The notes under the pieces were generated by a model. It saw only the letters and a list, made by a program, of their open reading frames with translations. It did not search any database and was not told the DNA's origin. Positions 1-49,198 of a stretch of 64,000 nucleotides of DNA are shown here, in pieces. Location of the stretch: assembly GCA_029907715.1 (NCBI GenBank), contig JARYLI010000002.1:124001-188000 (forward strand), read 5' to 3'. A program made the position numbers and the translations under genes. This DNA comes from Methanothrix sp. GTDB taxonomy: Archaea; Halobacteriota; Methanosarcinia; Methanotrichales; Methanotrichaceae. How positions within the stretch are numbered: position 1 is the first letter of the stretch; each line of letters begins with the position of its first letter.

Positions 1-240
1 TCTCCCCATAGTGGAGAGTTTGATTCAAATCGACCGCCTGTGGACTTGAGTCCTGATAGCAGTACTGAGGCAAGATAAGACTATTATAGTATTACGCATA
101 AGTTGATATAATATCACATGTCACATAAAATCATCTATGAAGTATGACATATCCAGTAGATTTTAAATGGATTTACATGAAGTGGCGCAAAGAACTATAA
201 GTCCAATTCTACAGATGTCGATCTTAACCGATGACGCATG
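1..240 (+). mobile_element. 189-bp-type element (family R2), left end cut by the window, carrying a nested R1
   Basis: Positions 15-240 match the right part of the complete element at 23925-24113. The only large difference is an extra 113 bases here, which is exactly the 111-bp R1 element plus a duplicated TA. The right end matches the other copy, with the terminal sequence CTTAACCGATGACGCATG finishing at 240. The left terminal repeat would lie about 60 bases outside the window. It sits 14 bases beyond the stop codon of the CoA-transferase gene, so the insertion falls just downstream of that convergent gene end. No protein is encoded. Confidence 0.85.
87..197 (+). mobile_element. 111-bp MITE-like element, family R1, copy 1
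   Basis: Three copies of exactly 111 bp occur in the window (also 23702-23812 and 42303-42413). This one interrupts an R2 element between duplicated TA dinucleotides (85-86 and 198-199). The uninterrupted R2 copy at 24061-24080 shows the empty site with a single TA. The ends are imperfect inverted repeats starting TAGT, and an internal hairpin is formed by ATGTCA (118-123) and TGACAT (145-150). No coding capacity is present. TA duplication is the hallmark of IS630/Tc1-mariner-type transposition, so mobilisation in trans by such an enzyme is inferred. Confidence 0.88.
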
Positions 241-23701: not shown

Positions 23702-23812
23702 TAGTATTCCGCATAAGTTGATATGATATCGCATGTCACATAAAATCATCTATGAAGTACGACATATCCAGTAGCTTTTAAACAGATTTACATGAAGTGA
23801 TGCAAAGGACTA
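23702..23812 (+). mobile_element. 111-bp MITE-like element, family R1, copy 2
   Basis: This copy has the same length and ~90% of the sequence of copy 1, beginning TAGTATTCCGCATAAG and ending GCAAAGGACTA. A TA follows the right end, but the left flank reads AT, so one side of the duplication has changed. It lies 112 bases upstream of the R2 element. Confidence 0.88.
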
Positions 23813-23869
23813 TAATCCGGTATGGCTGGCAGTCTGTCCATCAGGAGTATGTGAGGATCCACAAATGGT

Positions 23870-24190
23870 CGCTCTCATGTGTTTGCAACATATGGATCGC
23901 GCAATTTGGTTGCTGAACGCACTTCATTGGTCATCGGTTAAGGATTTTCTGTAAATATATTGACCATGAAATTTGACAAATTGTGATCACGCCAGATTGG
24001 AGAGTCTGATTCAAATCGACCACCTGTGGACTTGAGTCCTGATAGCAGTACTGATGCGGGATAAGACTATTAAGTCCAATTCTACACATGTCGATCTTAA
24101 CCGATGACGCATGGAACGCACTTATTCATTCACCAAGAATGCACAGGAGGACCGGTGCTTCTACGGGAAAGTTATCATATGGATAAAGCG
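23870..24190 (+). repeat. structured dispersed repeat HR, copy E, interrupted by an R2 element
   Basis: The left part (CGCTCTCAT...GGTTGCTGAACGCACTT, 23870-23924) and the right part (ATTCATTC...GTTATCATATGGATAAAGCG, ending at 24190) join into a normal but diverged HR repeat once the 189-bp insert and one 10-bp duplication are removed. This leaves about 122 bp. It is the only copy not between convergent genes. Confidence 0.72.
23925..24113 (+). mobile_element. complete 189-bp non-autonomous element, family R2
   Basis: The terminal inverted repeats are 18 bp: CATTGGTCATCGGTTAAG at the left and the complement of CATGCGTCATCGGTTAAG at the right, with 16 of 18 matching. The flanking 10-bp direct repeat GAACGCACTT (23915-23924 and 24114-24123) is a target duplication inside HR copy E. 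No protein is encoded. A second copy forms the start of the window. A 10-bp duplication is compatible with some IS4-group transposases, which is a tentative match only. Confidence 0.88.
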
Positions 24191-42184: not shown

Positions 42185-42302
42185 GGTTTGTGACTGCTTG
42201 CTGGGTCGAATAATTGAGACCTATAAGGCCAATCACTATCGATTTCTACTACAATTGGAATTTGTATGAATTGTGTCTCTGCTATCAGATTCTCAAACAT
42301 TA

Positions 42303-42413
42303 CAGTCCTTTGCGTCACTTCATGTAAAAGCATTTAAAATCTACTGGATATGTCATACTTCACAGATGATTTTATGTAACATGTAATATTATATCAATTT
42401 ATGCAAAATATTA
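42303..42413 (-). mobile_element. 111-bp MITE-like element, family R1, copy 3
   Basis: An inverted copy with the same exact length. TA flanks both ends (42301-42302 and 42414-42415), consistent with the duplication. It lies in the ~425-base divergent spacer between spt5 and the zinc-ribbon gene, a region otherwise without genes. Confidence 0.88.
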
Positions 42414-42578
42414 TAATCAACACTGCATGACTGCTTTGAGCACTCCCGAGGGTCCAGATTCAGCAGATCCGGGGCTTCATGAGCCCAGATCGTATCTCCA
42501 GTATGCGCATAGCTTATATCCCATAGGATCTTCGCATACCTCAAAATCTGTTTGGATCCCAGGCGTAAGGAGGTCGCA

Positions 42579-48977: not shown

Positions 48978-49100
48978 TTCTTCACCGTCCTTAGCGAAAA
49001 ACTACACAGAGTTTTTGCGCATTCATAACTCTGAAATACTGGTATTAAAACCTTTTGCCCGCATGCTGCGATCTGGATGTCATAATCTCTTAAGAATAAG

Positions 49101-49198
49101 TGCCGGGGGCGGGATTCGAGCCCGCGACTTCCAGATGACCCAGGCGCCTGTGGCTTACCCTATGAGTCTGGCGCCCTAACCAGCTAGGCCACCCCGGC
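49101..49198 (-). tRNA. elongator tRNA-Met (CAT) with a 24-base intron
   Basis: On the minus strand it has acceptor GCCGGGG / CCCCGGC with discriminator A, T-arm GCGGG-CTCGAAT-CCCGC and anticodon stem CCAGA / TCTGG. Removing 49137-49160 (24 bases after position 37) leaves the loop CTCATAA with anticodon CAT. The junction forms a bulge-helix-bulge with central helix CTCA/TGGG and bulges TA^G and TC^A. CCA is not encoded. Introns in elongator tRNA-Met are common in archaea. Confidence 0.93.

Follow-up and report, generated by a model that had tools for sequence, protein, structure and literature searches.

A 111-bp TA-duplicating repeat family of Methanothrix with ends like those of an IS630 transposon group in its relatives

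Three related repeats of exactly 111 bp lie scattered through a 64,000-nt stretch of Methanothrix sp. DNA (the window: positions 124,001 to 188,000 of contig JARYLI010000002.1). They raise the question of what kind of element this is, and of what enzyme could have moved it, 111 bp being too short to encode a transposase. An earlier note, made from the letters of the window, had proposed a MITE (a short element without a transposase gene) that duplicates TA on insertion and is served by an IS630/Tc1-mariner-type enzyme acting in trans. This is still the best reading: R1-like ends are found on a group of IS630 transposase genes in related genomes, and the step in trans is one that we infer.

The repeat unit and its TA target

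The repeat, called R1 here, has the ends TAGTATTCCGCATAAGTT...AAGTGACGCAAAGGACTA. The positions and lengths first reported for its three copies agree with those found here, as does the presence of TA on both sides of two of them:

87-197, plus strand: R1 copy 1, 111 bp; TA duplications at 85-86 and 198-199
23702-23812, plus strand: R1 copy 2, 111 bp; left neighbour AT (TA lost), right TA at 23813-23814
42303-42413, minus strand (inverted): R1 copy 3, 111 bp; TA at 42414-42415 and 42301-42302

A 32-base core of R1 occurs three times in the window, against no occurrence in 100 dinucleotide shuffles. The relatedness of the two ends, also proposed earlier, is real: they form an imperfect terminal inverted repeat, beginning TAGT and matching at 16 of the first 30 positions.

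The earlier note had asked how many copies the genome holds. In the genome to which the window belongs (G000; 2.0 Mb in 55 contigs), R1 has 43 BLAST matches; 40 copies were taken as full length, 38 of them having the standard length. Searching with each end separately brought in copies that are interrupted, truncated or degenerate, so that alongside some 40 full-length copies the genome has about 10 others, counted by hand. Mean pairwise identity among the 38 standard-length copies is 90% (82-100%). Three copies (at loci L009, L010, and L011) are identical over all 111 bp but have differing flanks; because identical copies sit at unrelated sites, their sequences suggest fairly recent movement. 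At two loci, L031 (G000:C13:43419-43605) and L039 (G000:C18:28439-28632), the first 82 bp of R1 are fused directly to a complete second R1, a composite that has perhaps moved as a unit.

TA is present on both sides of 34 of the 40 full-length copies. The left TA is preceded by T in 26 of the 40, and the right TA is followed by A in 30, so that the target leans towards TTAA. Many copies are inserted within other repeats. R1 flanks were joined with a single TA between them and aligned to copies of the flanking sequence that lack R1, with the following results:

Window 24010-24116, plus strand: empty site for copy 1; 107 columns, no gaps, 94% identity, single TA at 24071-24072; paralogous
L091: empty site for copy 1; 98% identity, no gaps
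Window 23925-24030, plus strand: empty site for L009 (R1 at G000:C4:127934); 106 columns, no gaps, 86% identity; paralogous
L127: empty site for L009; 92% identity, no gaps
Stretch of genome G005: empty site for L032; aligned with one gap

The R1-free counterparts are mostly paralogous empty sites. Because the joined flanks with a single TA match them, R1 is a unit of 111 bp that moved with duplication of TA. The copies are thus not embedded in any longer conserved sequence, the finding that the earlier note had named as counting against a MITE: the empty sites delimit the 111 bp. The stretch at 23925-24116 is itself a portion of a longer multi-copy repeat, and a frequent landing place for R1.

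Two other features of the window may be recorded here:

7198 (minus), 20889 (minus), and 36025 (plus): another small repeat family, beginning CGCTCTTATCCATCTGATAACTTG, found also at G000:C2:97328-97572
49100-49198, minus strand: 99-nt tRNA-Pro, called with anticodon AGG by ARAGORN; Rfam also places a tRNA there

The length of the tRNA-Pro gene, 99 nt, suggests that it holds an intron, and the anticodon call may therefore be wrong.

Two IS630 groups and the ends of R1

The left end of R1 was scanned across 50 genomes of the family, and near-matches were found at contig ends in two of them, G037 and G010. In G037 the R1-like ends border an IS630-type transposase gene; in G010, 3′ ends of transposase genes lie at the same contig ends as the R1-like ends. 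The IS630 group with such ends is called IS630-B here. A copy in G002, a genome of the same genus, is bounded by TA followed by TAGTCTTACGCTAAACTT on one side and by TTATGCGGATAACTA followed by TA on the other, with an open frame of 351 aa between; the predicted protein is an IS630 family transposase (NCBIfam NF033545, 192 bits; Pfam DDE_3, PF13358).

Of 30 positions, the left end of R1 shares 20-24 with the ends of IS630-B. It scores 20.7 bits with a profile of nine IS630-B ends. The profile is not fully independent, since R1-like sequence had led to several of the loci that supplied its ends; the ends of G002, G012, and G017 came through a transposase search. By this profile, the four best of all 117 TAGT sites in the window are the two ends of copy 1 and the two ends of copy 2. 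The right end matches less well in this species (5.7 bits, shuffle p 0.001) than in the G004 and G002 versions of R1 (15.6 and 11.9 bits, respectively). When the same 50 genomes were searched with full-length R1, the only matches outside the genus were the IS630-B termini in G037.

In G000 the search found IS630-B only as a 3′ fragment (C6:112865-113101), the end of which reads TATAGTTATCCGCATAACTG; no intact copy was found in the 55 contigs, and one might yet lie in an assembly gap. No unexplained R1-like end was found at any G000 contig end. A 121-aa ORF near the fragment has no Pfam match, but the DDE_3 profile did match the fragment in the genome search. Next to the fragment (L043, 1773-3039, on G000:C6) is another transposase gene, IS256-like by eye and interrupted by a CGCTCTTATC-type small repeat. 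Elsewhere in the genus, matches to IS630-B are no more than partial in G001, G004, and G005 and absent from G003, which has about 20 matches to R1.

A second group, IS630-A, is the multi-copy IS630 of G000, with many copies at contig ends; its ends read TAGTGCTC..., and TAGTGCTCCATAACA and TAGTGCTCAGTAACA. Being present in many copies in the same genome, and sharing with R1 the TAGT start and a target containing TA, it is an obvious candidate for the element that moved R1 or from which R1 was derived, and two G000 contig ends do join IS630-A to R1 sequence. Beyond TAGT, however, its ends are unlike those of R1: they agree with it at 13-14 positions out of 30, as do many other TATAGT sites, which puts the agreement at chance level, and they score below -6 bits with the IS630-B end profile. 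Other IS630-A copies keep their own ends and have unrelated flanks, so the joined contig ends represent IS630-A inserted into one R1 copy. A role for IS630-A in moving or giving rise to R1 is for these reasons very unlikely, and the reading first suggested by the joined contig ends, R1 as an internal-deletion derivative of IS630-A, was rejected on the same grounds. The IS630-type transposase with matching ends that the earlier note proposed to look for in this genome is accordingly not the abundant one; IS630-B has such ends, with its 3′ fragment as the only trace found in G000.

The two joined ends (L131, G000:C14:1-150, and L028, G000:C12:1-120) resemble the two halves of one event. The IS630-A transposase is encoded in two frames that meet where a run of A gives way to G, at G000:C7:65612-66726 (L042), in L136 (G002), and in L123 (G005): the run is A8G in L042 and L136 and longer in L123, and from its sequence looks like a putative programmed -1 frameshift site. 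There is also an internally deleted IS630-A (L125, G000:C13:32884-33290), in which some 110 bp lie between the parts encoding residues 1-61 and 313-349 of the transposase; this intervening stretch resembles repeats elsewhere in G000.

Interior, position, and distribution of R1

The internal hairpin ascribed to R1 in the earlier note did not hold up. The predicted folds of single copies are no more stable than those of shuffles (z -0.75, 0.76, and 0.47), and an alignment of 29 copies, drawn from five genomes of the genus, has no compensatory change, its consensus structure consisting of 4 pairs at -0.19 kcal/mol. R1 also mostly avoids genes: of 27 R1 junctions tested, 2 fall in ORFs 150 aa or longer, as do 277 of 400 random TA sites in the window (the test is mechanical, and both counts include spurious ORFs).

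A second possibility is that R1 serves the host, as regulatory DNA or RNA under selection, with transposition secondary. Its mostly extragenic position would suit such a role, as would the conservation of its length and interior between species (91% mean column identity over the 29 copies). Avoidance of genes is, however, expected anyway from selection against disruption, and likeness between copies from descent from a few source copies; with no conserved structure, covariation, or Rfam match at R1, a host function seems highly improbable.

R1 is present in five of the six genomes of the genus examined, G001 being without it. It was not found outside the genus in the 50 family genomes nor, beyond the family, in one exact-pattern scan of genome contigs; no description of it was found in the open-access literature, which is weak evidence of absence. 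At one site in two species, L008 (G000 C7:10727; 1501-1617) and L067 (G005 C1:705267; 1501-1615), R1 lies at the same TA, within nearly identical flanks, in opposite orientations, the two copies being alike at 99 of 111 bases. In L003 and in L086 of G003, the R1 copies are a few bases apart, again in opposite orientations. That insertion sites are reused between species is a rather doubtful reading of these alignments, of which there are just two. If reuse were general, either certain TA sites would be strongly preferred or one R1 would replace another in place.

Mobilisation and comparison with known elements

R1 is thus very probably a non-autonomous element of the IS630 family, mobilised in trans by the IS630-B transposase. 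This transposase would recognise the imperfect terminal repeats of R1, roughly 26-30 bp long, at both ends, excise the whole element, and integrate it at a TA, which is duplicated in the process. The cut-and-paste mode is suggested by the biochemistry of ISY100, a member of the IS630/Tc1/mariner group that moves in this way into TA, duplicating it, and for which 30 bp of each end suffice (PMC2170065); by this analogy R1 would need only its ends and the enzyme. IS630-B would have driven the amplification of R1 and then decayed in this lineage. The likeness between R1 and IS630-B is confined to the ends, so R1 could have arisen either by internal deletion of an IS630-B copy or by some other joining of IS630-B ends.

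That R1 was instead carried by another, unseen family of TA-duplicating transposons, its likeness to IS630-B being convergence or cross-mobilisation, is hardly credible, for while no intact IS630-B was found in G000, an assembly in many contigs, and the R1 right end is a weak IS630-B match in this species, all left-end matches in G000 are R1 copies or fragments, and the matching ends found in other genera lie at IS630 transposase genes.

Several loci considered as parents of R1 proved to be R1 itself. The longer R1-like locus L143 of G004 is an R1 interrupted by a gene resembling IS200/IS605 TnpB (by eye), and those in G003 and at G000:C2:97328 are R1 copies interrupted by other small repeats, in the latter case (L160) by a copy related to the CGCTCTTATCCATCTGATAACTTG repeat. 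Of the single-end matches, that at C3:120352 is a truncated R1 and that at C1:242827 a degenerate one.

RUP of Streptococcus pneumoniae, attributed to IS630-Spn1, is similar in many respects: about 107 bp long, with some 100 intergenic copies, a TA target, and IS630-like ends, and often located within other mobile elements (PMC2229807). Its sequence is unrelated, its host is a bacterium, and its partner IS is in the same genome, whereas the intact partner of R1 is found only in relatives. An IS630 MITE of Methanosarcina mazei (partner ISMma9) also has a methanogen host and resembles its IS only at the ends (PMC3852290, Table 4); by its description, on which the comparison is based, it is 89 bp long and has 5 copies, a tenth of the R1 copy number. 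Reports from archaea include MITEs whose likeness to their IS is limited to the ends, and also MITE-like repeats with no remaining partner (PMC3852290).

ISY100 and its mini-transposons also insert at TA with duplication of TA (PMC2170065), but ISY100 is autonomous and was studied in vitro, while R1 has no transposase. ERIC and Correia/NEMIS are small repeats with terminal repeats and TA at their termini, as in R1, but long stem-loop transcripts have been described for them (PMC2229807).

R1 has the properties of an IS630-derived MITE: it is a gene-less repeat of fixed length, with TA duplication, IS630-like ends, and a DDE partner. It does not have both ends in common with IS630-A, nor a conserved stem-loop of the ERIC/Correia type. 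An intact partner in the same genome, which is usual and not required (cf. PMC3852290), was also not found. R1 is therefore a well-supported, ordinary case of a known kind of MITE, with a right end that resembles IS630-B more weakly.

Bacteria commonly have such elements, and methanogens were already known to have them. What R1 adds is a well-delimited archaeal IS630 MITE with exact empty sites, an identifiable enzyme group, and a partner with an open frame in a genome of the same genus, which makes mobilisation in trans directly testable; in one species, it is also a MITE family that seems to have outlived its transposon.
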